A stretch of 64,000 bases of DNA, taken from NCBI GenBank assembly GCA_002256345.1, contig NKIY01000013.1, positions 62,001 to 126,000 on the forward strand, in the 5' to 3' direction. The position numbers were made by a program, and so were the translations under genes. The notes under the pieces were generated by a model. It saw only the letters and a program-made list of their open reading frames with translations. It made no database searches and was not told the DNA's origin. Positions 38,912 to 64,000 of the stretch are shown here, one piece after another (positions within the stretch are counted from its first letter, which is position 1; each line of letters starts with the position of its first letter). This stretch comes from Bradyrhizobiaceae bacterium PARB1. Lineage in GTDB: Bacteria > Pseudomonadota > Alphaproteobacteria > Rhizobiales > Xanthobacteraceae.

Positions 38912-40065
38912 CAAACGACCCTCAATCTGTTCGGCGTCGATGTCGACTGAAGATTCCTGGTCCATGTCCGGTAGTAGGCTACGGCCGTCATCAAGCCGAT
39001 CCCGCACAGGCTGACGAGCGTTTGGAAGGCTATCGAGTCCGAAACAAGTTCGATGAGGAAGCAGCCGACGAACGAGAGGAATATTCCGACGCAGAATACT
39101 TCAAGGGAGCGCTCGCCGCAGATCGTCGCTGGACGCAGGAAGGGTAGTTTCAAGACCGTAGCGCTTCGCGGCACCAATCTCGCAACGACCAGCGCGAGCG
39201 CGAGGAAATGCAGGATCCGATACGGCGCCAGATTCGTCTTGTCGTTCGGGAGCAAGACGTCTGCGATCGGTGCCGGCATCGCCTCCGAAAAGCCGAAACG
39301 CGCAGCAAGCGTAACGACGAGACTGAACAAGAGGAAGAGCACCGCCGACCATACGGCCAGGCGGGATGCAATCAGCCGCCGCACCAGACCCGTCCGGTCG
39401 AGCGAGATCCAGGCGCCGATCATGAAAAGAAACTGCCAGGCGAATGGATTGAAGTACCAAGTGCCGTCGGGATAGCTGGACAAGTTCCAACCGAAGGTCC
39501 GGGCCGCCACGTAGATTGCAAAGGAGGCCGCCAGCGCCAAGCCAGGCGACTGCATCAAAGGCCAGAGGAAAAGCGGAAAAGTGGCCATCAGCGCGATATA
39601 GAGCGGCAGGACGTCGAGATTGAGCGGCTTGAACTCCAGCAGCAACCCATGCTTCAGGAATTCGATCGGATCGGCGATCAAGTGCCGAATATTATATTCG
39701 TCGAGAAGTTGGGCGTGACCGTAGCTCTGGGCGACGTAGCCGACCGCGGCGACGTAGACGACGAACAGAAGAATGTGCGCCACGTATAGCTTCCAAGCCC
39801 GAGCCAGAATGCCTACCGCGGCCGGTACGAAGCCCCTGGCTACCATCGTCCGCGAGTAGACGAGCGCGACGGTGTAGCCGGAGATGAACACGAAGAGATC
39901 GGCTGCGTCGCTGAAACCGTAGTTCTTCATCGTCAGCCAAGCGACGGCATTGTTGGGAATGTGGTCGACGAAGATCGCCCAGTTGGCTGCGCCTCGAAAC
40001 AGGTCGAGGCGTAGGTCACGCGCCGTAGGCCCGCTGTCTGATTGATTGCCGACGCGGTCCGTCAT
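38911..40065 (-). CDS. opgC: OpgC-family membrane acyltransferase
   Basis: A 384-residue protein with about 10 membrane helices, beginning MTDRVGNQSDSGPTARDLRL. It carries the OpgC pattern DLFRGAANWAIFVDHIPNN, FVFISGYTVALVY and LARAWKLYVAHILLFV. OpgC adds succinyl groups to osmoregulated periplasmic glucans. Its one-base overlap with zntA and place in a metal operon are unusual; charged glucans may bind cations in the periplasm (inference). The upstream frame to 40122 overlaps a tandem repeat and is not used. Confidence 0.9.
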   Translation of the reverse strand: MTDRVGNQSDSGPTARDLRLDLFRGAANWAIFVDHIPNNAVAWLTMKNYGFSDAADLFVFISGYTVALVYSRTMVARGFVPAAVGILARAWKLYVAHILLFVVYVAAVGYVAQSYGHAQLLDEYNIRHLIADPIEFLKHGLLLEFKPLNLDVLPLYIALMATFPLFLWPLMQSPGLALAASFAIYVAARTFGWNLSSYPDGTWYFNPFAWQFLFMIGAWISLDRTGLVRRLIASRLAVWSAVLFLLFSLVVTLAARFGFSEAMPAPIADVLLPNDKTNLAPYRILHFLALALVVARLVPRSATVLKLPFLRPATICGERSLEVFCVGIFLSFVGCFLIELVSDSIAFQTLVSLCGIGLMTAVAYYRTWTRNLQSTSTPNRLRVV

Positions 40066-49698: not shown

Positions 49699-52359
49699 TC
49701 AAAGCACGAACCGATCCCAACCGCCGTAGTGCTCCTGGCTGCGGCTTCCGCGCGGTAAGCTCAGTCCCACCAAGACGATGCCAAGTAATGCACTGACGGC
49801 AGTTGCGAGTAGGCTCGCGCCTCCCATAACGAAGGGTGCGGCCACCAACCAAGCGCCAAAAATGCAATTCACGAACCGGATCGGCCGAGCAACCTCAGCC
49901 GTAGCAATCACCGCGACGCTGATCGCCAGCGCCCCAGTGACGTGATCGCTGTTCGCCATGCTCCCACTGGCGCCAAGGAACACGCGGGTCAGCATGAGGA
50001 AGCCGCCGATGGCGATGCTGGCCGCGAGCGTCCAGGGAACGGTGACGCCGCGCAGAGCATCCACCCAGAGAGCGCGTGGGTTTGCCAGCGGGTCTGTGTG
50101 ATCCTCTTCTCCGCCCTCGACCGCTCCGCCTTGGAAGAAGATTCGGACAACCGGTTTCCCCTTGCGGTGCGCCCACCAGAGATATTGGCCCATCGCGACT
50201 ACCTCGTCGAGGGCCAACGGGATCATGATCAGCATGGCCAGCGCGGCTATCAGGCAAAGCGTGCACCACGTTCCCAGCAGCACCGGCTGAATAACAATGA
50301 AATAGATGCTGATGACCCCCAGCGGGATCACCAGAATGCCAAAGAAGGTCACCATCCACGGCATGGTGCGCCAGCGGTCGCGCCCACCCATTACCGCCAT
50401 GAGGATCTCGAGCGTGTAAGCAATCGCGCCAATTCCGCCGTCGGGCACTGGCCACGCTTTCGAGATGCTTGACGTGATGATCTCTTCGGTTCCGTTTCGG
50501 GGATTGGCGGCAGCTCCAGCAAAGAACGGGTCCCACACGCCGTCGATGTGGCCCAGTTGATAAGCGGTCAGGATGCGGGAGATCAGTAGCCCGATCAACC
50601 CGAGTAGGGCGATTGGCAAACGTTGCGACCAAGACGAAGGACAGTAGGTCCAGCCCGGCGGGATGACCTTGGGGTCCATCATTCCTTCCATGCTCATGCC
50701 GGGCATCATAGGGATGAGAACTGACAGACTGATCGCGAGTATCCCGATGACGGTGTCATTGAGATACTGGGCCCCACTCGGCGTCCAGAATATCATCGGC
50801 GCGAATAGCAGCCACAAGCCGACCGCCGTCGTGGCCCAAGGCGCCCAGCTGGCGCTGCGTTTAGACAACGAGAGCCCGCCGAAGAGCGCAATGAGCAGTC
50901 CGCTGACCAAGTCGCTGATGGTCAGGGCGCTGGCGCGGAACTCGAGAGCTGCAAGGCCTCTATCGACGGTGACTGCCCGAACAGTGGCGCTGAACGTCGT
51001 GGCCGACATGCCATCATAACTAGGGGGACTCGCCGCCAGCCAGAGGCCGAGACCGATGGTCGCAAAATAGGCCCATCGAGACCGCTGGGCGTCATGCTCC
51101 ATCAAGGCCATTGGATCGGCACCGCTCGACGAGCCGCGATTGGAGTCGCCGGCGCCGTGATTGCCGTGGACCATCCCGCCATGCCCTTTGTGGGTGCCAG
51201 GTGGCGTCACGTCGCTTGCTTTCCCGCGCGTATCGGGCTGCCCCACGCCTTTCGGGCCGGAGGGGTCGCTCTTGCCGATGTCATCAGCCGATCCCTTGGC
51301 CTGCCGAGCGACGACAGCCGGATCCAACTTGTTGGCTTTGTACCAGCCCGACGGGTCCCGCGTCAGGGCAGCAACCATCTTCGGAAGGGTCTCGCGCAGA
51401 GAATGCGCGGGATACCAATTCAGAAGCTGCCGTGCTCGCGAAATATCCAGCACGTAATGGGCGTTGCTCTCATCGACCATCCACGGCTTGACGAAGGTGT
51501 CCTCACCTAAGGCTTTGTTCTCCAGCCATGCCCCGGCCTTCGCGATCGACTGCGGTATCCGCAGTGTTGACCAATCTTCTCCGTGAAGCGATCGGCCTAT
51601 AATATCCTGCACTTCGCTATAGCCGAGCGCTTCGGGCTCGCCGATTAACACGGCTAATTCTGGCTTGAGAGAGCGTCTTTTATCGACGACATCGGCGATG
51701 GCGTTAGTCAAATCCTCGAGGTGGACAAATGACTGGCCGGCACAAAGCATGCCCGGATAAAGGTGAGCAGTTAGCCGATGCTCATAAATGCCGGCGATCT
51801 GTTGGGCGATAAACGGAGAGTGGCATTCGTCGTCATACACCCCGGCGATCCGCAGCATAACAACCGGGACCGCGCGATGGCCGTCTCGCAGCAGCGCTTC
51901 GGTCCGCACCTTCGATTCGGGATACGCCCAACTGGGCGCAATTGGTGAATCCTCATTTATTCTTTTGTCTGGACTATCTGTCGGACGATGTACGAGCATG
52001 GTGCTGGCGAAGACAAATTGCTCGATTTTAAATGCTTGTAGCGCATCGATCAATCGGCGCGTGCCCTGAACCGTAATTGTTTCGTAAAGCGGATTTGGTT
52101 CTCCTGTAATGTCGTAATAAGCCGCGAGGTGGATGACCGAGACTAAATTCTCGCCATACCGATCTCTGACGGACTGCAGTGCGGTAGCTACTCCTTCATC
52201 GGTGGATACGTCCAAGTCGACATGGTCTGCATACTCCGCCGCGTTTTTTCCGCCAGCCCGATCGAGCGCCACGACTTTGTAGCGACTTGCCAGCCGCTGG
52301 CGTACGGCACTTCCGATGAACCCCGTCGCGCCGGTGATTAGGATAATCCCCTCAGTCAT
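49699..52359 (-). CDS. Epimerase-SPW-VKOR multidomain fusion membrane protein
   Basis: An 886-residue protein from ATG 52359 with a GAGAGGA ribosome site. Residues ~1-350 are an NAD-dependent extended SDR (ILITGATGFIGSAVRQRLAS, YPESKVRTEALL with Tyr/Lys). A flexible Gly/Pro/His linker (~350-410) follows, then an SPW-type two-helix repeat region (WAYFATIGLGLWLAASPPSY; SWAPWATTAVGLWLLFAPM). Next is a VKOR-like membrane domain with GTWCTLCLIAALAMLIM (CxxC). A final SPW-like membrane region ends the protein. It probably links thiol redox chemistry to a sugar-nucleotide or quinone-type dehydrogenase. The function is unknown. Confidence 0.85.
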   Translation of the reverse strand: MTEGIILITGATGFIGSAVRQRLASRYKVVALDRAGGKNAAEYADHVDLDVSTDEGVATALQSVRDRYGENLVSVIHLAAYYDITGEPNPLYETITVQGTRRLIDALQAFKIEQFVFASTMLVHRPTDSPDKRINEDSPIAPSWAYPESKVRTEALLRDGHRAVPVVMLRIAGVYDDECHSPFIAQQIAGIYEHRLTAHLYPGMLCAGQSFVHLEDLTNAIADVVDKRRSLKPELAVLIGEPEALGYSEVQDIIGRSLHGEDWSTLRIPQSIAKAGAWLENKALGEDTFVKPWMVDESNAHYVLDISRARQLLNWYPAHSLRETLPKMVAALTRDPSGWYKANKLDPAVVARQAKGSADDIGKSDPSGPKGVGQPDTRGKASDVTPPGTHKGHGGMVHGNHGAGDSNRGSSSGADPMALMEHDAQRSRWAYFATIGLGLWLAASPPSYDGMSATTFSATVRAVTVDRGLAALEFRASALTISDLVSGLLIALFGGLSLSKRSASWAPWATTAVGLWLLFAPMIFWTPSGAQYLNDTVIGILAISLSVLIPMMPGMSMEGMMDPKVIPPGWTYCPSSWSQRLPIALLGLIGLLISRILTAYQLGHIDGVWDPFFAGAAANPRNGTEEIITSSISKAWPVPDGGIGAIAYTLEILMAVMGGRDRWRTMPWMVTFFGILVIPLGVISIYFIVIQPVLLGTWCTLCLIAALAMLIMIPLALDEVVAMGQYLWWAHRKGKPVVRIFFQGGAVEGGEEDHTDPLANPRALWVDALRGVTVPWTLAASIAIGGFLMLTRVFLGASGSMANSDHVTGALAISVAVIATAEVARPIRFVNCIFGAWLVAAPFVMGGASLLATAVSALLGIVLVGLSLPRGSRSQEHYGGWDRFVL

Positions 52360-52674
52360 GATCCATTCCTCTCGAGGCAACCGACTGCCTAGTGGAGACC
52401 TTACCCAACGTAGCTTGTTACGATCAGTTCGTTAGGCACGACCCTTATGTTCAAGCACAACGCCAGCACTGCACTTCAAATATGACGGCCACACACAAAT
52501 ATTTCAGTCGCCGCGCAACTCGATTAGGATTTCGAAGTGATGCTCGACATGACCTAATCGGAAAGATTGACGCGCTTCACGCGCTTATACTTGTGCACTA
52601 ATGTAATAGCAGAAAACTCCGGTCGATCTCAGCGCACCTAAACAAACCAGGCTTGAAATGCCCGGTTCAACCGT
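52360..52674. other. Gap upstream of the fusion gene
   Basis: 315 bases with no supported gene. An imperfect hairpin AACCAGGC / GCCCGGTT lies at its right end, near the HdeD-like gene's stop, and could serve as that gene's terminator. Confidence 0.35.
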
Positions 52675-53298
52675 TCAAACAATAGACACGTGAAGTATAA
52701 ATCGTCTCAACATCGCTTGGTCACACCAGGCTGTTGGGTTTCGCGCGGACAAGGCCATCCCGATGAGGGAGCATCCCCCGAACAGAAAGTTGATTCCCAC
52801 GAGGAGTCCGATTGCCCACTCCGCGGACTGTGGTAGTCCCAGGATTATCATTGCGGCTACGATAAAATCGACGATGCCTGCCGCGATCATCCATAACCAT
52901 GACGCGGTCTGGCGATGACCGAGGCCGAACATTATCGAAGAAAACCCTTCGAAAATAAAATATGCCGCCGTCACGATCGTCAGTGTGACCGTTCCCTGCA
53001 CCGGTCGGCCAATGAGCAAAATACCTGCCGCAATGCCAAGCATTGCTGACAGAAGCCCCCACCAGACTCCCGGCTTATCCCTCGCGGAAAACGTGACAAC
53101 CACTCCTGCAAGACCGCCGACCAAAAACACCCAGCCGACAAAGATGGTTGTCGCCACGCTGGCCAGTACAGGAATCGCAAGTGCCGCCAGGCCAAGGATC
53201 ACCAGGATGACTCCTTCAACTAGAAACGCTTTCCAGGGAATCACAATCGTCGAGGCCAGATCGCCGACATCGTCCAAATTTTTATCGCCAATGTTCAT
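52675..53298 (-). CDS. HdeD-family membrane protein
   Basis: A 207-residue membrane protein of about 6 helices, made of three related HdeD units: FLVEGVILVILGLAALAIPV, GLLSAMLGIAAGILLIGRPV and MIAAGIVDFIVAAMIILGLP, with GINFLFGGCSLIGMALSAR. HdeD proteins are linked to acid resistance in enterics, but most environmental copies are uncharacterised. It is a single gene here. Confidence 0.9.
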   Translation of the reverse strand: MNIGDKNLDDVGDLASTIVIPWKAFLVEGVILVILGLAALAIPVLASVATTIFVGWVFLVGGLAGVVVTFSARDKPGVWWGLLSAMLGIAAGILLIGRPVQGTVTLTIVTAAYFIFEGFSSIMFGLGHRQTASWLWMIAAGIVDFIVAAMIILGLPQSAEWAIGLLVGINFLFGGCSLIGMALSARNPTAWCDQAMLRRFILHVSIV

Positions 53299-53495
53299 GA
53301 GAGCTCAGTCATTCGCCGATATCAACGGTGAGGTCACCGCTCGCACGGGATCCTATTTCAAATTTACGCTTTGGTTAGATCGTTTGTTTCAGCGGTGAGC
53401 AGAGGTTGCGATGCAACATGCACAGCAGTGTTTCAATCGTACTGCATAAATAAAGTACGTCCGACTTCGCTTGACATACATCTGATCGTCGACAG

Positions 53496-53759
53496 TTATT
53501 CTTTTGCGTTCTTGGACTTGCACATCGCGCACACACCCAGCCCACACATCACCAGACAAGGCAGCGCACTGAGAATGATCGGCGCAAGGCCGGCCGCAAC
53601 CAACCATCCCCAGCCTCCAAATAACATTGCTGGTATTGCGGCCAGACCGACGAGGGCGAGGAGCGCCCATCGGTTGCCGAAATAGTTACGTGCGGCTCTG
53701 AGTGCATCCCGTCCAAGCGACGCGTCCGCCGTCGCTGCGGTTTTGATTGGTGTCGTCAT
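53496..53759 (-). CDS. Small membrane protein with C-terminal Cys motif
   Basis: An 87-residue protein from ATG 53759 (MTTPIKTAATADASLGRDAL) with two hydrophobic stretches (WALLALVGLAAIPAMLFGGW and LVAAGLAPIILSALPCLVMC) and a Cys-rich tail (CGLGVCAMCKSKNAKE) that could bind metal. The ATG overlaps the stop of a six-codon upstream mini-frame by four bases (ATGA). Family not named; similar tiny Cys-tailed membrane proteins occur in metal-resistance clusters. Confidence 0.75.
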   Translation of the reverse strand: MTTPIKTAATADASLGRDALRAARNYFGNRWALLALVGLAAIPAMLFGGWGWLVAAGLAPIILSALPCLVMCGLGVCAMCKSKNAKE

Positions 53760-53776
53760 GCGATACTCGCGTTCAT
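53756..53776 (-). other. Six-codon leader frame with strong ribosome site
   Basis: GCAGGAGGATTAC ATG AAC GCG AGT ATC GCA TGA: an ideal ribosome site leads to a six-codon peptide whose stop overlaps the start of the small membrane protein. It may be a translational coupling leader. Confidence 0.5.
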
Positions 53777-53825
53777 GTAATCCTCCTGCGTTCAGCGCCA
53801 TATGCCAAACTGCGCGACTAAAATC

Positions 53826-53854
53826 CTGCGATCGCTTTCGGTATGCGATCGCAG
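53826..53854 (-). terminator. Perfect hairpin after the thioredoxin-reductase-like gene
   Basis: Minus-strand stem CTGCGATCGC / GCGATCGCAG with a 9-base loop, followed by GATTTTAG. It begins 12 bases after the flavoprotein stop, so it likely terminates that transcript. Confidence 0.65.
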
Positions 53855-53866
53855 CAACCCAGATAC

Positions 53867-54805
53867 TTATTTTAAATCTTCTCGCAGCAGCGCCGTATTG
53901 ATTCCAATTGCTGCTTCGGCGCCCTCTGCTGCGGCTACAACGACCTGCAGAACATCTCGGGACGCATCTCCGGCCAAGTAAAGACCTGGCACATTTGTCA
54001 TCTGCTGGTCGTTATCAATTTTACATCCCTTTAGATCGTACATGTCGCACCCAAGCCTTGCCGCTAAATCGGTGGATTGACGCCGATCCGTGTTGAAGAA
54101 TAGACCAGCTCGTTGCAACGGCGGGCCGGTCTCAAACACGATTTCGAAGGATCCTTGATAAGGAACTGCGCTTTCAATCTTTAACTGCAGAATCTTTTCT
54201 TCGCGAATCGGAATACTTTTTTGTTTCAGTCGTTGTCGAAAATCGTCACTGAGATCAGAGGGTCCGTCCGTACACAGCACGAGATCGCGGCTCCAAAGCG
54301 TGAGTTCAAGTGCGAGACCGCCGCCTTTGTGATCCCCGCGACCATAAACAGCGAGTGGTCGGTCTCGCATCTCCCACCCGTCGCAATACGGACAGTGAAA
54401 CACGGCCCGACCATAAAGTTCGCGAAAACCTGGTTGGGCCGGCAGCTCGTCAACCACGCCGGCGGCCAAGAGCAGTTTACGGGTGCGAAATTCGCGACCG
54501 TCTTTCGCACGGATGCCGAAGTGTGCACCGACGCGTGTCGCACCTACAACCCGCTGATCTTCGAATACCACCGATGAATAGGGCGCGAGTTGCTCTCTCG
54601 CAATGCTTCGAAACTGCGCAGGAGGAAGGCCGTCACGACTCAAAAATCCATGCATCGCATGGGATACACGGTTGCGAGGCTGGCCATCGTCGAAAACCAA
54701 CACGTTCCTGCGGCAGCGGCCCAACACCAAAGCGGCGCTTAATCCCGCAGCTCCTGCTCCAACTATAATCACGTCCCACAAAATCTCGCTGACTGTGTCG
54801 TTCAT
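53867..54805 (-). CDS. Thioredoxin reductase-like FAD/NAD(P) oxidoreductase
   Basis: A 312-residue two-domain flavoprotein. The FAD site is VGAGAAGLSAALVLG. The redox pair is CPYC in FHCPYCDGWEMRD, in place of the CATC of standard TrxB. In the usual NADPH loop the motif is altered to GRGDHKGG. The C-terminal FAD motif GLYLAGDASRDVLQ is intact. It probably reduces a disulfide partner other than classical thioredoxin. It sits downstream of an NrsF-like gene and may be a thiol-stress target. Confidence 0.88.
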   Translation of the reverse strand: MNDTVSEILWDVIIVGAGAAGLSAALVLGRCRRNVLVFDDGQPRNRVSHAMHGFLSRDGLPPAQFRSIAREQLAPYSSVVFEDQRVVGATRVGAHFGIRAKDGREFRTRKLLLAAGVVDELPAQPGFRELYGRAVFHCPYCDGWEMRDRPLAVYGRGDHKGGGLALELTLWSRDLVLCTDGPSDLSDDFRQRLKQKSIPIREEKILQLKIESAVPYQGSFEIVFETGPPLQRAGLFFNTDRRQSTDLAARLGCDMYDLKGCKIDNDQQMTNVPGLYLAGDASRDVLQVVVAAAEGAEAAIGINTALLREDLK

Positions 54806-54915
54806 CGTTCCTCAATTCGAATGAGCTCTCAAGCGATCTCAAAGGAGCGGGCAGCTCTCGTCCCGCCACCTAATGATTGAATTCGCAGAATTGCTTCTCG
54901 TAGTTGACGGCTCCC

Positions 54916-55536
54916 TTAGCGCTCGGGCAGTTGCACTCGGAACAGACGAGCCTCCAGCTTCGCCCCGGCCAGCATTGCCAAGATGCTGGTTGCGCCAAAC
55001 CACAGTGCGACGAGAGGTGCGGGATCGACAGTGCAATGTAGTGAATAGGCGATGACGCTCACGCCCGCGGCGATGAGCCCGATCTTCTCTCCTGCGTTAA
55101 CAATATCGACCGGCTGCGCCACCATTCGCACCATCAACATCATGATGAGGAAGGGCGCTATGATCATGATGGGAACTGCAACAAGGCAGTCGAGCCATTG
55201 ACCGCGCGCTAACATCTCATTCCAACTCGGATCTGCGGCCATACCGGCCGCAGCGGCTCCCATGGCTCCCAACAAAGGCAGGATGAATCGAGGTCCTGAC
55301 CAATGCGAGCCACCGGCCCGCTCAAAAGTCAAAATAAAGAAGCTCGTGAGAGCAACCGCACCTAAACTAAATATGAGCTTCACGGCAACAATCACGAGCA
55401 CGTCGACGTCGCTGAGATCCGGGTTAATGCGAAACGCAATCACCAGCAAAAAAAGCGACACGATAGCGCCGCTTGCGATAACTATTGCAGTCTTACCGAC
55501 AATTCGCGGCGGCAAGCGTGTATCGTTGATGGTCAA
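54916..55536 (-). CDS. Second NrsF-like (DUF1109) protein without its own sigma
   Basis: A 206-residue, six-helix membrane protein of the NrsF anti-sigma family. The two conserved cysteines are in GQWLDCLVAVPIMI (Cys117) and AYSLHCTVDPAPLVAL (Cys168), 51 residues apart, just as in the adjacent NrsF (130/180). No sigma gene overlaps it. It may be a second sensor for the same sigma, or a diverged copy. A 14-base-pair hairpin lies upstream. Confidence 0.82.
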   Translation of the reverse strand: MTINDTRLPPRIVGKTAIVIASGAIVSLFLLVIAFRINPDLSDVDVLVIVAVKLIFSLGAVALTSFFILTFERAGGSHWSGPRFILPLLGAMGAAAAGMAADPSWNEMLARGQWLDCLVAVPIMIIAPFLIMMLMVRMVAQPVDIVNAGEKIGLIAAGVSVIAYSLHCTVDPAPLVALWFGATSILAMLAGAKLEARLFRVQLPER

Positions 55537-55612
55537 TTGAAAATTCTGGCTCTGATTGTCAGCAGTTCGTCAACAAATGATGCGATCATTCGGCGAAATC
55601 AAAGGGTCCGCT

Positions 55613-55648
55613 ATCCTGTCTCTTGGTTCTTTCACCAAGAGACAGGAT
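55613..55648. repeat. Perfect 14-base-pair inverted repeat
   Basis: ATCCTGTCTCTTGG / CCAAGAGACAGGAT with an 8-base loop, between the Met-rich protein gene and the second NrsF-like gene. It is followed by T-rich sequence only on the plus strand (GATTCTTTTTC), where no gene ends; on the minus strand there is no T-run. It may be an attenuating or RNA-stability hairpin between the two leftward transcription units. Confidence 0.7.
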
Positions 55649-55707
55649 GATTCTTTTTCAAGATAATCGATCTTGTTTGACTTTTGCGGCGATCGATCGT
55701 CGGATGG

Positions 55708-55989
55708 TCAGCCTCGCCCGTCAGGCTTGGAGGACCCGGACTTCTCTTTCTGATGATCGATGCTGGTTTGCATCATCTTGTCGCACTTATCCATCATCTG
55801 ACCCATCTGACCCATCATCTTCATCATGCCCTGCATATCGCCTCCCATCATGTTGTCATGATTGGGTGTTGGCACCGTTGATGGGGAAGATTGCGTAACG
55901 GGCTTGTCTTCGGCTCGCACTGCACTTGCCAGGGACAGGTCGATCGATACGGCGACGAGGGCCAGAATGACTGCTGCGGTTTTGTTCAT
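55708..55989 (-). CDS. Small exported Met-rich protein, probable Cu/Ag binder
   Basis: A 93-residue protein from ATG 55989 (ribosome site GAGGAG). Signal MNKTAAVILALVAVSIDLSL, then a short mature chain with HDNMMGGDMQGMMKMMGQMG followed by QMMDKCDKMMQTS. Clustered Met residues, one Cys and one His suit Cu(I) or Ag(I) chelation. It follows the small exported protein by 38 bases and so falls under the sigma-type promoter at 56345. Confidence 0.82.
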   Translation of the reverse strand: MNKTAAVILALVAVSIDLSLASAVRAEDKPVTQSSPSTVPTPNHDNMMGGDMQGMMKMMGQMGQMMDKCDKMMQTSIDHQKEKSGSSKPDGRG

Positions 55990-56027
55990 TTGAGATCTCC
56001 TCTTTCGTGTTTCACCTGGTTTAGATT

Positions 56028-56291
56028 TCATTGAAATTTCGGCCCGCCGCGATAATTGCGCGTAAGGGCAGATCGATCAGTAGTCCGCTCACTCGATGGG
56101 CCGTAGGCAGAGCCGTCAAAAGCGAACGCCGAATTCAGATCGGGCCGAGTGACGGCGGTGCGGGCTTGAACGCTCGGATGGGCCTCATTCGGCCAATAGC
56201 TCTTATCCGTAATTGTCTGGCCAGCTTGAGCCGCCGCGGAGATTGCCGTGAGCGGGATCAAAAGCGAAATCGTGAGAAGGGTCTTTGTCAT
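56028..56291 (-). CDS. Small exported hypothetical protein, first gene of a sigma-controlled unit
   Basis: An 87-residue protein with signal MTKTLLTISLLIPLTAISAA and a short mature chain (ITDKSYWPNEAHPSVQARTA ... RNYRGGPKF). No Cys. Ribosome site GGAG. The GTAACC-N16-CGAA promoter lies 54 to 79 bases upstream of the ATG. Function unknown; probably periplasmic and stress-induced. Confidence 0.75.
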   Translation of the reverse strand: MTKTLLTISLLIPLTAISAAAQAGQTITDKSYWPNEAHPSVQARTAVTRPDLNSAFAFDGSAYGPSSERTTDRSALTRNYRGGPKFQ

Positions 56292-56344
56292 GGTCCGGCT
56301 CCATCATTTCTTTGAAGCGCATCATCCGCGCGTCTAATGATAAG

Positions 56345-56370
56345 TTCGGTGTGAATTATGTTTCGGTTAC
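56345..56370 (-). promoter_or_regulatory. ECF (SigF-type) promoter of the small exported protein unit
   Basis: On the minus strand GTAACC (56365-56370), exactly 16 bases, then CGAA (56345-56348). This is the motif reported for SigF-NrsF regulons. It matches the motif before the sigma gene, with the same spacing. Confidence 0.75.
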
Positions 56371-56402
56371 ACGCTCACGCTGACGTGACCAGTAATGCGA
56401 TC

Positions 56403-57044
56403 TCACCAGCGCAGCAGACGTGGCCCCATTGCTGCGCCTGCCAGCGTGCAGAGAACAACCGTTCCGCCGTACCAAACTGCCACGAATGGCAGGGAGTCGT
56501 CCGTGCAATGCAGCGCGTAGGCCATTGCACTCACGCCGCCTGCGACAAGTCCGGCGAAAGCACCTGTGCGAGCAAGATTTGTCGGCGCTGCTTGTCGGAC
56601 CGCCCAGATTGCGACGATGAAGGGAACGATCGCAATGATCGGGATGGACACCAGACATTCGAGCCACTCGTCACCGAAAATCATATTGCGCCAGTGCGAG
56701 CTCGGCGCCAGCCACAGGCTGATTGCCGCAAGGGTCCCGATAACAAGGAACGGCATGGCAACGAGATACGATCGGGGTTTCCGCTCTCCACCGGGGCGCG
56801 AAAGCTTTGCAAGATAGATAGAGGCGAGACTTGATATTCCGATTGCGAATGCAATTTTTCCAGCGACAAAACTCAGCGCGCCAGACCTCATCACGTCCGG
56901 GCGGATGCCAAGTCCGCCAATCGTGATCCCTAAGGCTAGAACTGAACCTGCCACAAGCGCGAGCAGAAGCGTGCGAACAATCAACCTCCGATCGACCGGC
57001 TCGAGATTGGTACTCAGGAGGGCCACAAGCTCGTCAGTCTTCAT
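56403..57044 (-). CDS. nrsF: NrsF-type membrane anti-sigma factor
   Basis: A 213-residue, six-helix membrane protein (DUF1109/NrsF). Cytoplasmic N-terminal MKTDELVALLSTNLEPVDRR; conserved cysteines in DEWLECLVSIPIIA (Cys130) and AYALHCTDDSLPFVAV (Cys180). In Caulobacter the equivalent cysteines are needed to sense Cd or chromate and release SigF. Its ATG overlaps the sigma stop by four bases. Start chosen at 57044 rather than the open frame to 57131 inside the sigma gene. Confidence 0.92.
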   Translation of the reverse strand: MKTDELVALLSTNLEPVDRRLIVRTLLLALVAGSVLALGITIGGLGIRPDVMRSGALSFVAGKIAFAIGISSLASIYLAKLSRPGGERKPRSYLVAMPFLVIGTLAAISLWLAPSSHWRNMIFGDEWLECLVSIPIIAIVPFIVAIWAVRQAAPTNLARTGAFAGLVAGGVSAMAYALHCTDDSLPFVAVWYGGTVVLCTLAGAAMGPRLLRW

Positions 57045-57598
57045 GTCTGCTTTTCCTGTTGGATCAGAGTCGTCAGTGCTTTGAGCCCCCGGTGGATATT
57101 TACTTTGACCCCCGGCTCGGAGAGGCCGCACCGTACGGCTGCTTGCGCGATGCTCAACCCGTCCAGCTTCACAGCCTCAATGGAACACCGCATGTTTTTT
57201 GGTAGCCGCTCCATGAGTTTTCTAACGTCATAGCTACTTTCCGCGCCGACGTGATCGTCTTGCGCCATAATCGCATCAGCCTCCTCGATCGGCACGTCAG
57301 CCCGCGACGTACGGGTACGCCGCAGGAAATCAATTAACTTGTAGCGCGCAATGGCATGGACCCACGGTGTCAAAGGCTCGGCGGGATCATAAGTGTGCCG
57401 CTTGGAATGGACCGCTAAGAGTGCCTCTTGAACGAGATCCTCCGCCTCTACCGCTGCTCTTCCCATCATGGCAAGCCTGGCCTTGTAGTATGCCCGTAAG
57501 CGGCCACTCAGTTGTCCGAGCAAGGCGCGGTGGGCTGCTGCATCGCCGTCCAAGGCGGCGAGCATGAGCGCCTTGAGTTCGGTTTCGTGGGTCGTCAT
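57041..57598 (-). CDS. sigF: ECF sigma factor, SigF type
   Basis: A 185-residue ECF sigma. Region 2 AEDLVQEALLAVHSKRHTYD with TPWVHAIARYKLIDFLRR (promoter -10 recognition), region 4 LDGLSIAQAAVRCGLSEPGV with KVNIHRGLKAL. It is encoded with its anti-sigma NrsF, and a matching GTAACC-N16-CGAA promoter 20 bases upstream suggests it turns on its own gene. Confidence 0.94.
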   Translation of the reverse strand: MTTHETELKALMLAALDGDAAAHRALLGQLSGRLRAYYKARLAMMGRAAVEAEDLVQEALLAVHSKRHTYDPAEPLTPWVHAIARYKLIDFLRRTRTSRADVPIEEADAIMAQDDHVGAESSYDVRKLMERLPKNMRCSIEAVKLDGLSIAQAAVRCGLSEPGVKVNIHRGLKALTTLIQQEKQT

Positions 57599-57617
57599 AC
57601 TCGCTTCTGTCTGTTAG

Positions 57618-57643
57618 TTCGCGCCGTCGGCGGATTTGGTTAC
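57618..57643 (-). promoter_or_regulatory. Autoregulatory SigF-type promoter
   Basis: Minus strand GTAACC (57638-57643), 16 bases, CGAA (57618-57621), ending 20 bases before the sigma ATG. Confidence 0.75.
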
Positions 57644-57718
57644 AACCAAAGGTCACAGGTCTCGGAAAAACTCAACAATACCTGCTGCAGTGTTCGGCTA
57701 GGCTTCAATCTGTTTTGC

Positions 57719-58150
57719 TTAACGATCTCGCTTTTTGCGTAGCTCGCATTCGTGCAGCAATTCAGGACCGGCCCAGACCGCGGTTCCATCGTCATCGACG
57801 ATGAACAGCTTACACGAGTTTAGATCCTCGCTCAGTCGAGAAATGCTGCTCAGGGCGCTTTCGTTATCTGGATGCAGCTCACAGCGCATGACCAAATTAT
57901 CGGGGAGGTGGCAATCGCCCTCAACTATTTGACCCTTTGAATACAGGAAGGTTACGGGTCCATACTCCGGCCGCTGTTTCCAGCGCCGCAACAATTCCTG
58001 GCAGGCAAGCTCGACGGCGCGAGGGACTGGCCGGAGATCGTTTTCCCAGTATTGAACGGCACCGCGGCTCAGACCGAGCAGCTCGCCCGCGAGGACCTGA
58101 TTGATTTTCAGCTTCTTCCGCCATTTCTTGAAGTCCCATTGGTCCATCAT
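57719..58150 (-). CDS. XRE-family helix-turn-helix regulator after cusA
   Basis: A 143-residue protein with an N-terminal HTH (LKINQVLAGELLGLSRGAVQ YWENDLRPVPRA) and an uncharacterised C-terminal domain (VIRCELHPDNESALSSISR-like; CKLFIVDDDGTAVWAGPEL). It begins 34 bases after the cusA stop, so it is likely in the cus operon and may regulate it. Confidence 0.82.
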   Translation of the reverse strand: MMDQWDFKKWRKKLKINQVLAGELLGLSRGAVQYWENDLRPVPRAVELACQELLRRWKQRPEYGPVTFLYSKGQIVEGDCHLPDNLVMRCELHPDNESALSSISRLSEDLNSCKLFIVDDDGTAVWAGPELLHECELRKKRDR

Positions 58151-58184
58151 ACAAGCCTGGCACCATCAAACGAGCTTGCTTTTG

Positions 58185-61100
58185 TCATTCCGCTGCCTGC
58201 GCGTGGTGCGGATCATCCGCGTCGGTCGTTTTGGGCAAGTTCGAAATCTCGACACTCGGACTGCGGGGCAGCTTAAATCCTTTAATCAGGGCGTAGACCG
58301 CTGGAATCACGATAAGTGTCAGGATCGTCGACGAGATCATGCCGCCGATCATCGGCACGGCGATTCGCTGCATCACCTCGGAGCCGGTTCCGGTGCTCCA
58401 CAGAATCGGAATGAGACCAGCCATAATCGCTACCACGGTCATCATTTTGGGTCGGACCCGTTCGACCGCGCCCAGCATGATCGCCGCATTCAGGTCGGCG
58501 CGCGTGAACGGCTTATCTTCCGCCGTGCGGACCGCCTGAATTTCCTTCATGGCGTGGTCGAGATAAATCAGCATGATGACGCCGGTCTCTGCAGCGACGC
58601 CTGCGAGCGCGATGAAGCCGACGGCGACCGCGACGGAGAAGTTGAAGCCGAGCCACCACATCAGCCATAGCCCACCGACCAGCGCGAACGGCAGCGACAG
58701 CATTACGATCAGTGTCTCGGTCAGGCGTCGGAAGTTCAGATACAGCAACAAGAAGATGATTAGCAGCGTGACGGGCACGACAATCTTCAGCCGCGCGGTC
58801 GCCCGTTCCAGATATTCGAACTGGCCGCTCCAGACGACGTAATTTCCAGGCGGAAACTGGACGCTGGCGGCCACGGCCGCCTTGGCGTCGGCGACATAGC
58901 CGCCGAGATCGCGGTCCCGGATGTCGACGAAGATGTAGACCGCGAGTTGACCGTTCTCGGTCCGGATCGACGTGGGACCCCGCGCGAGCTTGATTGCGGC
59001 GACTTCGCCCAGTGGCACGGTGCCCCCACTCGGCATCGCGACCAGTACGTCGCGGGCGATTGACTGCTGATCGCTGCGCAGATCGCGCGGGTATCGCAGA
59101 TTAACGCTGTAGCGCTCGCGACCTTCGACGGTCGTCGTGATCGTCTCGCCACCCAATGCTGACGACACAGTATCCTGCACGTCGCTAATCATCAAACCAT
59201 AACGCGCGAGAGCCTCCCGATTTGGCACGACATCGAGATAGTATCCGCCAATGACGCGCTCCGCATAAGCGCTCGATGTGCCCGGGACAGCCTTCACGAC
59301 GGTTTCGATCTGCCGGGCGAGCTTCTCCATCTCGGCCAGATCTTTGCCCAGAACTTTTATGCCGATCGGCGTGCGAATGCCCGTCGCCAGCATATCTGTG
59401 CGAGCCTTGATCGGCATCGTCCAGGCGTTTGACACGCCGGGGAACTGCAGCGCCTTGTCCATCGCAGCGATTAGGGTGTCAACCGTCTGTCCGGCGCGCC
59501 ATTCCTCCCTCGGTTTGAGGTTGACAATCGTCTCGAACATCTCAGTGGGCGCCGGATCGGTCGCGGTCTCCGCGCGCCCCGCCTTGCCGTAGACCGAAGC
59601 CACTTCAGGAAACGTCTTGATGATCCTATTCTGCGTCTGCAGGATCTCCGCCGCTTTGGTCACCGACAGACCAGGCAACGTCGTCGGCATGTACATCAGC
59701 GTGCCTTCGTTCAGGCTCGGCATGAACTCCGTCCCGAGCTGACGTGCCGGCCAAAGACTGATGGCCAAGGCGGCGATCGCCAGCAGGATGGTGAGGGTCT
59801 TGGCTCGCAGCACACCGCGGATCAGCGGACGGTAGACCCAGATCAAGAACCGATTGATGGGATTCTTGTGTTCGGGGATTATCTTGCCCCGCACAAACAG
59901 CACCATCAGCGCTGGCACCAAAGTGATCGACAGGATCGCCGCCGCCGCCATGGAGAACGTTTTGGTGAAGGCCAGGGGGCTGAACAGACGGCCTTCTTGC
60001 GACTCCATCGTGAAGATGGGAAGAAAAGAAACAGTGATGATCAGCAAACTGAAGAACAGCGCCGGGCCAACCTCGCTCGCAGCTTCGATGAGCACCTCGA
60101 GCCGTGGCTTGTCAGCCGGAGCGCGTTCGAGATGCTTATGCGCGTTCTCGATCATCACAATGGCGCCGTCGATCATCGCGCCGATCGCGATCGCGATGCC
60201 CCCCAGGCTCATGATGTTGGAGCCGATCCCAAGCATCTTCATGGCGCCGAATGCCATCAAGATCCCGACCGGCAGCATGACGATAGCAACAAGCGCGCTG
60301 CGCACATGCAGCAGGAACACGATACACACTAGCGCAACGACGATGCTCTCCTCGGTCAGCGTGCGCTTTAAAGTCTCGATGGCGCTATGGATCAGATCGG
60401 AGCGGTCGTAGACAGGTATGATCTCCACACCCTTGGGCAGCGCCGACGCCATCTCGGCCAAGCGTGTCTTCACGTTGTCGATGACGTCGAGCGCGTTCTG
60501 CCCGAAGCGCTGCAAGGCGATGCCGCTGGCGACCTCGCCTTCCCCGTTGAGTTCGGTGATGCCCCGGCGCTCGTCCGGACCCATTTCGATACGCGCGACG
60601 TCCTTCAGCAGCACGGGGGTGCCCTTGTCGACCTTGAGCACGATGTTCGACAGGTCGGAGAGGCTTTTGACGTAGCCTCTGCCCCGCACGATGAACTCGA
60701 ACTCGGACAGCTCCACGGTGCGCCCACCGACGTCCATGTTGCTGCCGCGGACCGCGTCCCGCACCTTGGCGAGCGGGATGTCGAGCGACCGCAGCCGGTT
60801 CGGATCGACCACGATGTTGTACTGCTTGACGAAGCCGCCGACGCTGGCGACCTCGGCCACGCCCTCCGCCTTGGAGATGCCGTAGCGGATGGTCCAGTCC
60901 TGGATGGACCGCAGGTCCGCCAGCGACTTGTCCTTGGACTGCAGCGCGTATTGATAGACCCAGCCGACCCCGGTGGCGTCGGGGCCCAATGTCGGCGTGA
61001 CGCCGGCGGGAAGCTTGCGTGCCGCGGCATTTAGGTATTCCAAGACACGCGAGCGCGCCCAATAGATGTCGGTGCCGTCTTCGAAGATGATGTAGACGAA

Positions 61101-61373
61101 CGAGGTGCCGAAGAACGAGAAGCCGCGGACGACCTTCGATTTCGGCACCGTCAGCATGGCCGTCGTCAAAGGATAGGTCACCTGGTCCTCGATCACCTGC
61201 GGCGCCTGGCCCTTGTACTCGGTATAGACGATCACCTGGGTGTCGGAGAGGTCGGGGATGGCATCCAGCGCGGAGTGCTGCACGGCATAGAGACCGCCGG
61301 CCACGACGAAGACCGTTCCGATCAGGATCAGCATCAGGTTGCGGGCCGACCAATCGATGAGACGCGCGATCAT
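58185..61373 (-). CDS. cusA: CusA-type Cu/Ag RND efflux pump
   Basis: A 1062-residue pump with the helix-4 motif AIGAMIDGAIVMIEN, characteristic of monovalent Cu/Ag (HME4) pumps rather than Czc. N-terminus MIARLIDWSARNLMLILIGT. It contains the double RND repeat and periplasmic domains that take up metal. It pairs with the CusB and CusC genes upstream; its ATG overlaps the cusB stop by four bases. Confidence 0.95.
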   Translation of the reverse strand: MIARLIDWSARNLMLILIGTVFVVAGGLYAVQHSALDAIPDLSDTQVIVYTEYKGQAPQVIEDQVTYPLTTAMLTVPKSKVVRGFSFFGTSFVYIIFEDGTDIYWARSRVLEYLNAAARKLPAGVTPTLGPDATGVGWVYQYALQSKDKSLADLRSIQDWTIRYGISKAEGVAEVASVGGFVKQYNIVVDPNRLRSLDIPLAKVRDAVRGSNMDVGGRTVELSEFEFIVRGRGYVKSLSDLSNIVLKVDKGTPVLLKDVARIEMGPDERRGITELNGEGEVASGIALQRFGQNALDVIDNVKTRLAEMASALPKGVEIIPVYDRSDLIHSAIETLKRTLTEESIVVALVCIVFLLHVRSALVAIVMLPVGILMAFGAMKMLGIGSNIMSLGGIAIAIGAMIDGAIVMIENAHKHLERAPADKPRLEVLIEAASEVGPALFFSLLIITVSFLPIFTMESQEGRLFSPLAFTKTFSMAAAAILSITLVPALMVLFVRGKIIPEHKNPINRFLIWVYRPLIRGVLRAKTLTILLAIAALAISLWPARQLGTEFMPSLNEGTLMYMPTTLPGLSVTKAAEILQTQNRIIKTFPEVASVYGKAGRAETATDPAPTEMFETIVNLKPREEWRAGQTVDTLIAAMDKALQFPGVSNAWTMPIKARTDMLATGIRTPIGIKVLGKDLAEMEKLARQIETVVKAVPGTSSAYAERVIGGYYLDVVPNREALARYGLMISDVQDTVSSALGGETITTTVEGRERYSVNLRYPRDLRSDQQSIARDVLVAMPSGGTVPLGEVAAIKLARGPTSIRTENGQLAVYIFVDIRDRDLGGYVADAKAAVAASVQFPPGNYVVWSGQFEYLERATARLKIVVPVTLLIIFLLLYLNFRRLTETLIVMLSLPFALVGGLWLMWWLGFNFSVAVAVGFIALAGVAAETGVIMLIYLDHAMKEIQAVRTAEDKPFTRADLNAAIMLGAVERVRPKMMTVVAIMAGLIPILWSTGTGSEVMQRIAVPMIGGMISSTILTLIVIPAVYALIKGFKLPRSPSVEISNLPKTTDADDPHHAQAAE

Positions 61374-62803
61374 TGCGGTTTTTCCCCGGTGTCGAGACCT
61401 TGAAGAGCAGCCTTCAGATTGCTTTCGGCGTCGATCAGGAAGTTGGCGGAGACGACGACCTTGTCATTCTCGTCAATTCCCTCCTTGATCTCGACCCGGT
61501 TGTCTCCGCGACGTCCGAGCTTCACGGGCCTCGGTTCGAAGCGGCCATCGCCCTTGTCGAGAAGCACCAGCTGACGCTCGCCGCTGTCGATGACAGCACT
61601 GCTGGATACGGTCACGACCGGAGCTTCAGTCCCGGTGGCGATCTCCACGTCCGCGTACATGTCCGGCCGCAGCAAATCGTCCGGATTGGGAAGCTCGATC
61701 CTGACCCGGGCTGTGCGGGTCTCGGCTCTAAGATTCGGATAGATCACCGTGATCTTCCCGGCGAAGGGGCGGTCCGGAAAAGCCCGGGTTCGAACAACGG
61801 CTTTCTGACCGACCTCCAGAAGAGCCAGGTCGCGTTCCGCGACATCGACCATCACCCAAACAATGCCCCGGTCGACGATCCGGAAGAGAATATCCCCCGG
61901 CGCGGCACGCATCCCGTTGACGGCCATCCGCTCCACGATCTCTCCATCCTGCGGTGCAGGCCAGTTCATGTAGACAGGCACTTCGCGCGTCCGCTCGATG
62001 GTTGATATGACGACATCGGGCGCGCCGAGATTTTCGAGACGACGGCGTGCGCCTTTAAGGGCCTGACCGCCAATGCCGGCTTCCGGACGGGCGTTGAGTG
62101 CTGAAAGATATTCGGCGCCGGCACTCGATAGGTTCGGGCCATAGATTCGCATTAAGGGCTGGCCCTTGCGGACATGCGTGCCTGTCGTGACGTTGTCGAC
62201 GGTGTCGACGAAGCCCTCGAATCGAAGCGAGACGACGGACACGCGACGTTCATCCTGCTGCACCGTTCCGGGTGCCCTAACCATCGTGTTGAGGGTACGA
62301 AGTTCGGCCGCTTCAGTCTGGACGCCCGCCTTCTGCTGCTTGGCTGCGCTGATTTTGACCGAGCCTTCATCGTCTTGCTCGCCTTCATAGACCGGCAGGT
62401 AGTCCATCCCCATGGAGTCTTTCTTCGGGGTCGGGGACGTGTCGGGTAATCCCATCGGATTGCGATAGAATCGGATTTTTCCCGGCTGGCTACCTTTTGT
62501 CGCCACGGCCTCCGGCGGCTTTTCGTCGAAGCTCAAATCTTCACTGCTTTTGACGGCGAGATAGTCCTTGCCGTTGGCGTTCTTCGCAGGTGCCGGCGAA
62601 TAACGGGCAGCGTCGTCCGGATCGCGGTAGTAGACGATAGGCCCAGTGGGCACCGGTCGCGCAGCTAATGGATCGGCCGCCGCAGGCATGAAAGCCGATA
62701 TCCATGCGGGCAACGGCCGATCCGACCGGCCGACGGCCAGACCCGCGATGCCAGCGGCCAAGACGGCCGCCGCGACGAGGAAAACGCGCGATGCACGGCT
62801 CAT
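61370..62803 (-). CDS. cusB: CusB-type adaptor with two heavy-metal-binding domains
   Basis: A 477-residue adaptor with an N-terminal signal-anchor (VFLVAAAVLAAGIAGLAVG). Two HMBD-like motifs follow (IVYYRDPDDAARYSPAPAKN and IRFYRNPMGLPDTSPTPKKD ... SMGMDYLPVYEG), then the lipoyl and barrel domains (PAPQDGEIVERMAVNGMRAA). The HMBDs lack the CPMHP cysteines and instead hold Met and Asp residues. It delivers metal to CusA and bridges to CusC. The start overlaps the cusC stop by four bases. Confidence 0.93.
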   Translation of the reverse strand: MSRASRVFLVAAAVLAAGIAGLAVGRSDRPLPAWISAFMPAAADPLAARPVPTGPIVYYRDPDDAARYSPAPAKNANGKDYLAVKSSEDLSFDEKPPEAVATKGSQPGKIRFYRNPMGLPDTSPTPKKDSMGMDYLPVYEGEQDDEGSVKISAAKQQKAGVQTEAAELRTLNTMVRAPGTVQQDERRVSVVSLRFEGFVDTVDNVTTGTHVRKGQPLMRIYGPNLSSAGAEYLSALNARPEAGIGGQALKGARRRLENLGAPDVVISTIERTREVPVYMNWPAPQDGEIVERMAVNGMRAAPGDILFRIVDRGIVWVMVDVAERDLALLEVGQKAVVRTRAFPDRPFAGKITVIYPNLRAETRTARVRIELPNPDDLLRPDMYADVEIATGTEAPVVTVSSSAVIDSGERQLVLLDKGDGRFEPRPVKLGRRGDNRVEIKEGIDENDKVVVSANFLIDAESNLKAALQGLDTGEKPQ

Positions 62804-64000
62804 AGCGAACCTCCCGCAAGGCGTTCGAGTTCGGCATATTTCGACTGGAGTTCGACCTTGAGCTTCAAGATATCGAGTTGCACCGCCCTAAGTCTGCGCT
62901 CAGACTCGAAGACCAGTGAGAGATCAGAAGAGCCGGCCTGGAAGCCATTACGTGCGTTGTCAACGGACGAGCGCGAGGGCGGAAGTTGGCGGGAGGTGTA
63001 GATCTGGATGACCTTGCGCAGCGCATCGACGGCGAACCAAGTGTCGGCAACCTGACCATCGATCTGGAGCCGCAGCGCCTCGTTGCGCGCTTCTGCGGCG
63101 CTCAGCTTGGCGCCTGCAGATCGCTGCGCAGCATCCTTGGCATCGTATTGCAAAGGCAGATTGATCGCGGCCTGAAACACCCCGGTGTCCGCAACTCCGC
63201 GCCGCTGGATGTATTTCGCTCCAAGATTGACGTCAGGATAGTAGTTGAGATCGGCGAGAGATTTGCTGCGGCCGGCCGAAGTTGTCTGCGCTCCAGCCAA
63301 TGCCAAAAGCGGGTTTGCTGACGATGCAAGTTGCTGAACTTGGGAAAGGCCGATCGTTTTAACGGTTCGAAACCCGATCGGTCTTGCGAGCGAAGCAAGA
63401 GGCGGACGCCCCATTAGCGCGTTGAGGCGGGCGGCTGCTGATCTGACTTCGCCCTGCCGGCGCGCCACATCCCCTTCAGCCGAGGCGGCTTCGATTTCAG
63501 CTTTTATTACATCTTGCTGGTCGACGGATGTCGTTCCATAGCGAGACTTCAGCAAAGCAAGAATTTCGTCGAACCGCCGTTTGATCTCGAGCGAAACTGC
63601 CACGGCTTCATGAGCTGCGTTGTACTCACCATGTGCTTCGACCACCTTCGCAACCAGATCGATAACTATTGCCTGCCCTTGATATTTGACGGCGCTGGCA
63701 TCGGCTTGCGCGATGCCGCGTTCTAGGCCGTATTTCCCCCAAAGCTTAATTTCCTGATTGACGCCAAATCGACGTTGCGCGACCCCTTGGCTGTTGACGT
63801 CCCAGGCTTCCAGCGACACGGTCGGATCAGCCAAGACCCCCGCTGTGCCGATCTTGTGGAATGCCGCATCGAAGTCGAGAGAGGCGGCCGCGACAGTAGG
63901 GTTGAGGCGTCTCGCGAATGCTATAGCGCTCTCCGCCGTCGCCCCGAGTTCGATACGATCGCCTGCAGCGGCCGGAGCCGACCACAGCATTGCTGTGGTC
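62800..64000 (-). CDS. cusC: CusC-type TolC-family outer membrane factor (5' end outside window)
   Basis: About 400 residues visible to the edge. The frame remains open beyond the ATG at 63990 (upstream codons give TTA), so the signal peptide starts outside the window; LLWSAPAAAGDRIELGATAE is its end. OEP repeats: FARRLNPTVAAASLDFDAAF and the second half QLASSANPLLALAGAQTTSA, ending VELQSKYAELERLAGGSL. It forms the outer channel of the Cus pump. Confidence 0.9.
   Translation of the reverse strand, partial: TTAMLWSAPAAAGDRIELGATAESAIAFARRLNPTVAAASLDFDAAFHKIGTAGVLADPTVSLEAWDVNSQGVAQRRFGVNQEIKLWGKYGLERGIAQADASAVKYQGQAIVIDLVAKVVEAHGEYNAAHEAVAVSLEIKRRFDEILALLKSRYGTTSVDQQDVIKAEIEAASAEGDVARRQGEVRSAAARLNALMGRPPLASLARPIGFRTVKTIGLSQVQQLASSANPLLALAGAQTTSAGRSKSLADLNYYPDVNLGAKYIQRRGVADTGVFQAAINLPLQYDAKDAAQRSAGAKLSAAEARNEALRLQIDGQVADTWFAVDALRKVIQIYTSRQLPPSRSSVDNARNGFQAGSSDLSLVFESERRLRAVQLDILKLKVELQSKYAELERLAGGSL

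Follow-up and report, generated by a model that had tools for sequence, protein, structure and literature searches.

SigF/NrsF switches, in which a sigma factor of the extracytoplasmic function (ECF) group ECF16 is paired with the anti-sigma factor NrsF, are known in several bacteria; whether they sense metals or oxidants is disputed, and for many of their outputs no function is assigned. In Caulobacter crescentus, SigF answers dichromate and cadmium, and the cysteines of NrsF matter (PMC3511200); the SigF regulon there is also copper-induced and a sigF mutant is copper-sensitive (PMC8224329). The promoter form quoted for ECF16 is tGTAACc-N16-CGAA (PMC3420878). Methionine-rich (Met-rich) peptides of SigF-type switches, MrpX and BcrX, counter hypochlorite (PMC4623255, PMC8315932), while the bufferins, small peptides of the DUF2282/DUF692 type, bind copper (PMC12452194). 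Here we describe a switch of this kind in Bradyrhizobiaceae bacterium PARB1, a soil bacterium (assembly GCA_002256345.1, contig NKIY01000013.1), within a stretch of 64,000 nucleotides (positions 62,001 to 126,000, forward strand) that we call the window. It is one of three copies of a module that probably serves to defend against copper stress through an output not described before, because in relatives the same promoter precedes Met-rich peptides and copper-handling genes. The module in the window consists of the following features, numbered from the first base of the window.

57618..57643, minus strand: promoter 1, GTAACC-N16-CGAA, first box 45 bases 5' of the sigma ATG
57041..57598, minus strand: ECF sigma factor of the SigF/ECF16 type, 185 amino acids (Sigma70_r2 1.5e-11, r4_2 1.8e-11)
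56403..57044, minus strand: NrsF anti-sigma factor, 213 amino acids (PF06532, formerly DUF1109, 2.6e-63, full length)
56345..56370, minus strand: promoter 2, GTAACC-N16-CGAA, first box 79 bases 5' of the small-gene ATG; both paralogous loci are arranged alike
56028..56291, minus strand: small predicted-exported protein, 87 amino acids, of the YWP...YxGGPK family (GGPK protein below), first gene of the downstream unit
56037..56054, minus strand: codons of its YRGGPK tail signature, a DNA pattern match
55708..55989, minus strand: Met-rich predicted-exported protein, 93 amino acids, second gene of the unit; the ATG at 55989 was chosen over that at 56031

The sigma factor has regions 2 and 4 only, as for ECF sigmas, and matches the NCBIfam subfamily PRK12539 (1.5e-90) above its cut-off; together with the published ECF16 promoter form 5' of its gene, this supports a pair of the SigF/NrsF type. 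NrsF scores 94 bits against NCBIfam AntiSigF_NrsF, below the equivalog cut-off of 300. A reading of this DNA made from the letters alone, hereafter the sequence-only reading, had described the overlap of the two genes, which measures 4 bases, and had pointed to the two NrsF cysteines of Caulobacter; the window protein has cysteines at 130, 180 and 199, and C130 and C180, the two conserved ones, align in the module copies and in a further copy on contig C24 (alignment of these copies). The likeness to Caulobacter thus extends over an ECF16 sigma with NrsF, the two NrsF cysteines (C131/C181 there), GTAACC-N16-CGAA-type promoters and small exported products, but the outputs described there are DUF2282/DUF692/DUF2063 (bufferin-type) clusters and YedY, whereas here they are YWP/GGPK and Met-rich proteins.

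In the whole window GTAACC-N16-CGAA occurs exactly only twice, at the two sites listed above, whose coordinates, strand and spacing the sequence-only reading had given correctly; the chance level is a mean of 0.04 over 100 dinucleotide shuffles, none of which reached two. The genome search for this motif that the same reading had proposed was run over 6.95 Mb in 32 contigs, with the window on contig C12, and found 11 exact sites compared with three for the reversed pattern. Six of these form three sigma/small-gene promoter pairs on C11, C12 (the window) and C14, the two sites of each pair being separated by 1271-1280 bases; of the remaining five, four lie inside or antisense to long open reading frames (ORFs) and one between rpoA and rplQ (ORFs identified by eye). 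The extended form TGTAACC-N16-CGAAY has six exact sites in the genome, which are those same three pairs. When up to one mismatch is allowed, the extended form gives 23 sites and its reversed control 25. The motif therefore carries information only as an exact match, and a wider regulon in PARB1 built from one-mismatch sites is ruled out. With three paralogous sigma-NrsF loci carrying six exact extended sites, the circuit is therefore real, and the earlier description of a "self-contained" regulon was wrong. It is very likely that both small genes are controlled by one of the module sigmas.

The genome holds five NrsF matches: one in each of the three modules, one in an EcfF/OsrA-like pair on C24 and one orphan within the window. 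The three module sigmas are 61-63% identical to one another. The C24 pair resembles EcfF-OsrA of Bradyrhizobium japonicum, a system of the same ECF group, in carrying the published EcfF promoter form (GTAACG-N14-CCGA at L016:6039-6062, ending one base before the first ATG of the sigma ORF), a form that some YWP/GGPK relatives also carry (PMC3420878). EcfF-OsrA differs from the modules in its shorter spacer, its GTAAC(g/a) box and its induction by hydrogen peroxide and singlet oxygen, and the module sigmas are only 35-37% identical to the C24 sigma. Because the EcfF-type pair co-occurs in one genome with the three modules, the two promoter forms suggest that one spacer base and one first-box base separate two regulons, SigF-type and EcfF-type. 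Among the three modules, which share one promoter sequence, there would probably be cross-talk.

Near-identical copies of the module stand in different genera: the C11 module (L015, G000:C11) matches a Tardiphaga record at 100% identity over 8 kb and an Afipia metagenome genome at 99.97% over 12 kb (a set with L045 and L046), and loci L127 and L128 are 100% identical across 6.8 kb between genera g26 and g6. This suggests recent transfer, or else misbinning of metagenome genomes.

The sequence-only reading had placed the weight on the Met-rich second protein as the output of the switch, and this protein does recur near such pairs, but the more constant output is the first protein. Both start in a signal-peptide-like manner (by eye); that reading had called them exported. 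The layout of the GGPK family is a signal peptide, AGxTIxDKxYWPxE, a variable middle and a YxGGPK tail, and the two paralogues of the window protein share the signal peptide, AG(S/Q)TITDKSYWP(N/G)E and the tail. Across 27 aligned members G24, T26, I27, Y32, W33, P34 and E36 do not vary, and Y80 and G82-K85 hardly do. The window protein reaches the cut-off of no Pfam or NCBIfam family, two NCBIfam models at E near 0.07 being chance-like, and AlphaFold2 predicts it to be disordered (mean predicted local distance difference test score 53.6, predicted template modelling score 0.12). Neither this family nor the Met-rich one matched a description we recognised in the open-licence literature, where the family peptide words were also unmatched. 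A DNA pattern for YxGGPK has three matches in the PARB1 genome and its reversed control four, so that the count alone is meaningless; it is the identity of the three hits, the three paralogous small genes, that counts.

Relatives of the GGPK protein in 25 loci come from records named Bradyrhizobium, Afipia and Tardiphaga and from two less precisely named metagenome genomes. The family was found in 6 of 18 genomes of the genus and in 29 of 248 of the bacterial family, where it gives 44 matches (G211, with an internal stop, was left out of the context analysis); at the level of the order, 3 of 297 genomes have it, all three from the same bacterial family. A GGPK-only family (A5) had no match in the 297 genomes of the order, in a search without positive control and hence uninformative.

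For the promoters in front of these genes, 66 loci were scanned and their 71 rows reduced to 56 distinct members by setting aside three alternative-frame rows and 12 identical proteins; the loci were retrieved by protein and not by motif, and are not phylogenetically independent. GTAACC-N16-CGAA lies within 140 bases upstream in 38 of the 56, with 34 distinct spacer sequences among the 38 sites; none of the 56 has these boxes with a different spacer in the range 8 to 24. In three more members the site is a near variant of the canonical one. When 140-base windows were drawn at random from these loci, 0.76% of the 112,000 draws held the exact motif, a figure that includes the true sites. A sigma gene stands 0.9-1.7 kb upstream in the same direction in 32 members, and 29 of these 32 sigma genes have an exact site of their own; among the three without one, one locus begins within the sigma gene and another shows no more than a partial sigma match. 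In two further loci (L084 and L088) the sigma gene is divergent from the small gene and each gene has its own site. As a target of the switch, the GGPK protein is strongly conserved.

The EcfF-type form GTAACG-N15-CGAA is upstream of another five of the 56 members, with no match at other spacers and none for the reversed motif. Diverged YWP/GGPK relatives that have no neighbouring sigma gene (L085, L086, L091, L093 and L097) carry GTAACG-N15-CGAAC, as if the family had switched regulon. Members with neither form include L083, L098, L022 and L044, the last two of which, from Bradyrhizobium erythrophlei, look decayed or unlinked.

A wider census of TGTAACC-N16-CGAAY over 79 loci and 914 kb, with an automatic labelling rule, gave 97 distinct sites, of which 39 precede the sigma gene, 37 YWP/GGPK genes and 6 a membrane protein; the other targets are cusB (three sites), ytkA (one), cusF (one), two labelled cytochrome c and eight unlabelled. 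Several of these last sites are accounted for by a second GGPK family, a small predicted-exported protein without YWP and with the tail CxYRGGPKTGxWSC, whose genes lie 3' of exact sites in L129, L130, L132 and L133 (unlabelled) and in L127 (labelled cytochrome c). Other unlabelled sites are one directly 5' of the Met-rich gene in L131, one between the Met-rich gene and cusB in L133, and two unexplained (L095; L127 near the locus end).

The Met-rich protein, if cleaved after ...VRA, has a mature part of 67 residues with 12 Met, 2 His and 1 Cys, which bears out its earlier description. Its relatives comprise 17 matches in 15 of the 248 family genomes; among the matches listed, 12 of the 17 have an nrsF match no further than about 2 kb away. 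The other five are three (L134, L135 and L136) without sigma or NrsF in the fetched stretch, a broken copy with sigma fragments next to it (L138), and L137, which is a spurious match. The gene is present in 7 of the 56 GGPK loci. In the core of the protein one Cys is conserved (5 sequences), and modelled as a helix the window core has Met and Cys on one face, with a moment of 0.58 versus a shuffle mean of 0.19 (0.05% of 2000 shuffles as high). Most relatives have a small membrane protein followed by the Met-rich protein; the window copy of this membrane protein is further down, at 53496-53801.

The copper context of the module comes from its upstream neighbours in the window, and from the genes which the promoter reaches in relatives. 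The neighbours are as follows.

58185..61373, minus strand: CusA-like resistance-nodulation-division (RND) pump (TIGR00914, CusA/CzcA, 1223 bits)
61370..62803, minus strand: CusB-like adaptor (HlyD_D23; 157 bits with the CusB chain versus 82 with ZneB)
62800..63990, minus strand: outer-membrane efflux protein in the CusC position (PF02321, 2.5e-29)

TIGR00914 covers pumps of both the CusA and the CzcA kind; against single chains the pump scores 1229 bits with E. coli CusA versus 559 with the CzcA-like ZneA. A cusA at least 70% identical to that of the window is found in 26 of the 32 loci with a same-direction sigma gene. Six distinct loci (L127 = L128, and L129 to L133) have the sigma gene and nrsF, the site, the membrane protein and Met-rich gene, and then cusB and cusA, with an exact site between the Met-rich gene and cusB in five of the six. 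Four exact sites in L084 precede the sigma gene, a GGPK gene, a membrane-protein/Met-rich unit and a YtkA-cusB-cusA unit, and in L113 an exact site stands 73 bases before a CusF gene (PF11604, 3.2e-26). The link of exact sites to CusBA in relatives is less sure than that to CusF and to YtkA-CusBA. Between cusA and the sigma gene, several loci (L014:7053-7793 and L024; 8 of 56 members by a fixed distance rule) encode a cytochrome c-like protein that contains a Met-rich stretch.

We therefore favour, at a probability of about 0.6, a SigF/NrsF (ECF16) envelope-stress switch in a copper/silver context with small exported outputs. What can be read directly in the DNA is the promoters, the gene order, the families and their conservation; from these, copper or silver is the likely signal and a role of the Met-rich peptide as a copper buffer is plausible. 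By analogy with its homologues, the membrane protein NrsF would hold the sigma factor until a signal in the periplasm, for which Cu(I) or Ag(I) is the likeliest candidate, acts on NrsF, probably via its two conserved cysteines, and frees the sigma, a release again modelled on the homologues. The sigma would then transcribe its own operon and the small exported-protein unit from TGTAACC-N16-CGAAY, giving the disordered YWP...GGPK protein and, in the window copy, also the Met-rich, Cys-containing amphipathic peptide; in relatives the same promoter would also reach CusF, YtkA-CusBA or CusBA, and the membrane protein paired with the Met-rich peptide. The Met-rich peptide may buffer periplasmic copper until the Cus pump exports it, and the GGPK protein would assist by a route which this scheme does not specify.

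Several observations weigh against this picture. In the window scan no exact site stands in front of the cus genes of the window itself, and in relatives the sites before cusB are about 0.2-0.4 kb from its start, further than for other targets, with one of the six loci having none. The nearest P-type ATPase in the window, at 36677-39007, scores best with Zn/Cd/Pb models; a copper P-type ATPase is ruled out there, and because this ATPase is Zn/Cd-like the region is not copper-only. Ten of the 56 GGPK members have neither promoter form. The mature part of the window GGPK protein has no Met, no Cys and a single His. ECF16 switches elsewhere answer hydrogen peroxide (H2O2) or hypochlorous acid (HOCl) (PMC3420878, PMC8315932).

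That last point leads to the best surviving alternative, which we hold to be unlikely, namely that the switch serves oxidant defence, sensing HOCl or H2O2, with the Met-rich peptide as a sacrificial scavenger like MrpX or BcrX that is recycled by methionine sulfoxide reductase (Msr). In its favour, EcfF-OsrA responds to H2O2 and has Msr genes under its control (PMC3420878), BcrS/AbcS responds to HOCl and regulates a Met-rich peptide (PMC8315932), perchlorate reducers have sigF/nrsF with mrpX and yedYZ (PMC4623255), and a thioredoxin-reductase-like gene lies downstream of the window module at 53867-54805. The likeness to MrpX and BcrX is that of an exported Met-rich peptide tied to an ECF16 pair; those peptides, however, adjoin MsrP/MsrQ-type genes and are linked to hypochlorite, whereas here there is a Cus-like pump and a conserved Cys, and no MsrP/YedY-type gene beside the Met-rich gene. 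Of the four Oxidored_molyb (PF00174) matches of that type in the genome, none lies close to any of the three modules or at an exact site; the closest one on a module contig is about 58 kb from that module, and C11 and C12 have none. By eye no MXKDX repeat was seen in the Met-rich protein, and no model of that type, probably present in the library, was reported for it at E<=0.1. The Cus-like pump as neighbour, and the relatives' CusF and CusBA genes that carry sites, also speak against an oxidant switch.

The sequence-only reading had proposed metal stress, with cadmium and chromate as the model. Its metal theme has been strengthened by the adjoining Cus-like pump and by the sites of relatives at CusF, YtkA-CusBA and CusBA, but copper or silver suits these neighbours better than cadmium or chromate. 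Broad sensing of heavy metals (Cd, Zn, chromate) rather than of copper and silver would agree with the dichromate and cadmium response of Caulobacter SigF (PMC3511200) and with the Zn/Cd-like P-type ATPase in the window; the affinity of the pump for CusA/CusB over ZneA/ZneB, and the CusF gene under an exact site in L113, make it doubtful, in our judgement a weaker candidate than an oxidant signal. That the sites are there by chance and the small genes lie outside sigma control is very improbable, since, set against the control-level count of one-mismatch sites and the ten of 56 members without the motif, the sites are exact, have a single spacer, stand at a near-fixed distance to the start codon and are conserved across loci.

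Beyond the copper/silver switch itself, we put forward tentatively, as a possibility more doubtful than not, that YxGGPK-tailed exported peptides are a new effector class of SigF/EcfF switches in this bacterial family, in which the tail would do the work: it would bind periplasmic Cu(I)/Ag(I), or pass it on to NrsF or the Cus pump, a role that elsewhere falls to bufferins. A script run over the same loci found 53 distinct tail-bearing short exported-type proteins, 42 with a canonical-type and five with an EcfF-type site. Two Cys flank the GGPK motif in 9 of 47 distinct tails; these Cys-flanked tails and the His-bearing repeats of one protein hint at thiol or metal chemistry of the tail, although the window member has no Cys. 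A small predicted-exported protein that adjoins the SigF module in L095 (6760-7005, plus strand) has two HHYSGGPKTEVPHHMGPK repeats (two HHYSGGPK), with no site within 140 bases.

Bufferins resemble the present outputs in being small exported copper-related peptides, some of them beside sigma and NrsF genes (PMC12452194), but they are Cys-based and modified by DUF692 enzymes, whereas the mature GGPK protein of the window lacks Cys. Bufferins are ruled out in the PARB1 genome, with 0 matches of DUF692/MNIO (PF05114); 91 of the 248 family genomes have one, and at least 18 of them have a DUF692 match within about 2.3 kb of NrsF, among the matches listed (by eye). It seems that, within a single bacterial family, bufferins and GGPK proteins replace each other as outputs. 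Another comparison is with gigPABT-rpoQ-rsqA of Cupriavidus, where an ECF sigma/anti-sigma pair neighbours an operon that is induced by copper and gold and encodes a small exported peptide (PMC10304878); GigP differs in having 4 Cys, 5 Met and partner enzymes, and control by RpoQ is not proven there.

The remaining features around the module are these.

54916..55536, minus strand: second NrsF-like gene without sigma partner, 3' of the Met-rich gene (PF06532, 9.6e-27)
55612..55649, strand not assigned: 16-pair hairpin 3' of the Met-rich gene, with a T-run on the plus strand only

The orphan NrsF-like protein keeps both conserved Cys and is 31-37% identical to the module NrsFs; it lacks the first ~12 profile residues, and the gene seems to be truncated or out of frame at its 5' end. 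The hairpin is a candidate terminator; four terminator-like sites were counted in the stretch versus 3.3 expected, no more than chance. No Rfam element was found at gathering thresholds in 53000-60000. A small helix-turn-helix protein (57719-58150, minus strand), with weak HTH_3 and MqsA-type matches, lies between cusA and the sigma gene, and in an ORF of 893 amino acids (49699-52380, minus strand) a start resembling an NAD-dependent epimerase is followed by what looks like a multi-pass membrane protein (by eye).

The locus thus offers one promoter, readable at the level of single bases, that marks two families of small exported proteins unnamed by Pfam and NCBIfam. The occurrence of the same promoter before CusF and Cus pump genes in relatives gives a handle on what NrsF senses, and on how short, apparently disordered peptides may protect the periplasm, and three modules with one promoter in one genome make a natural case for studying cross-talk between paralogous sigma/anti-sigma pairs.

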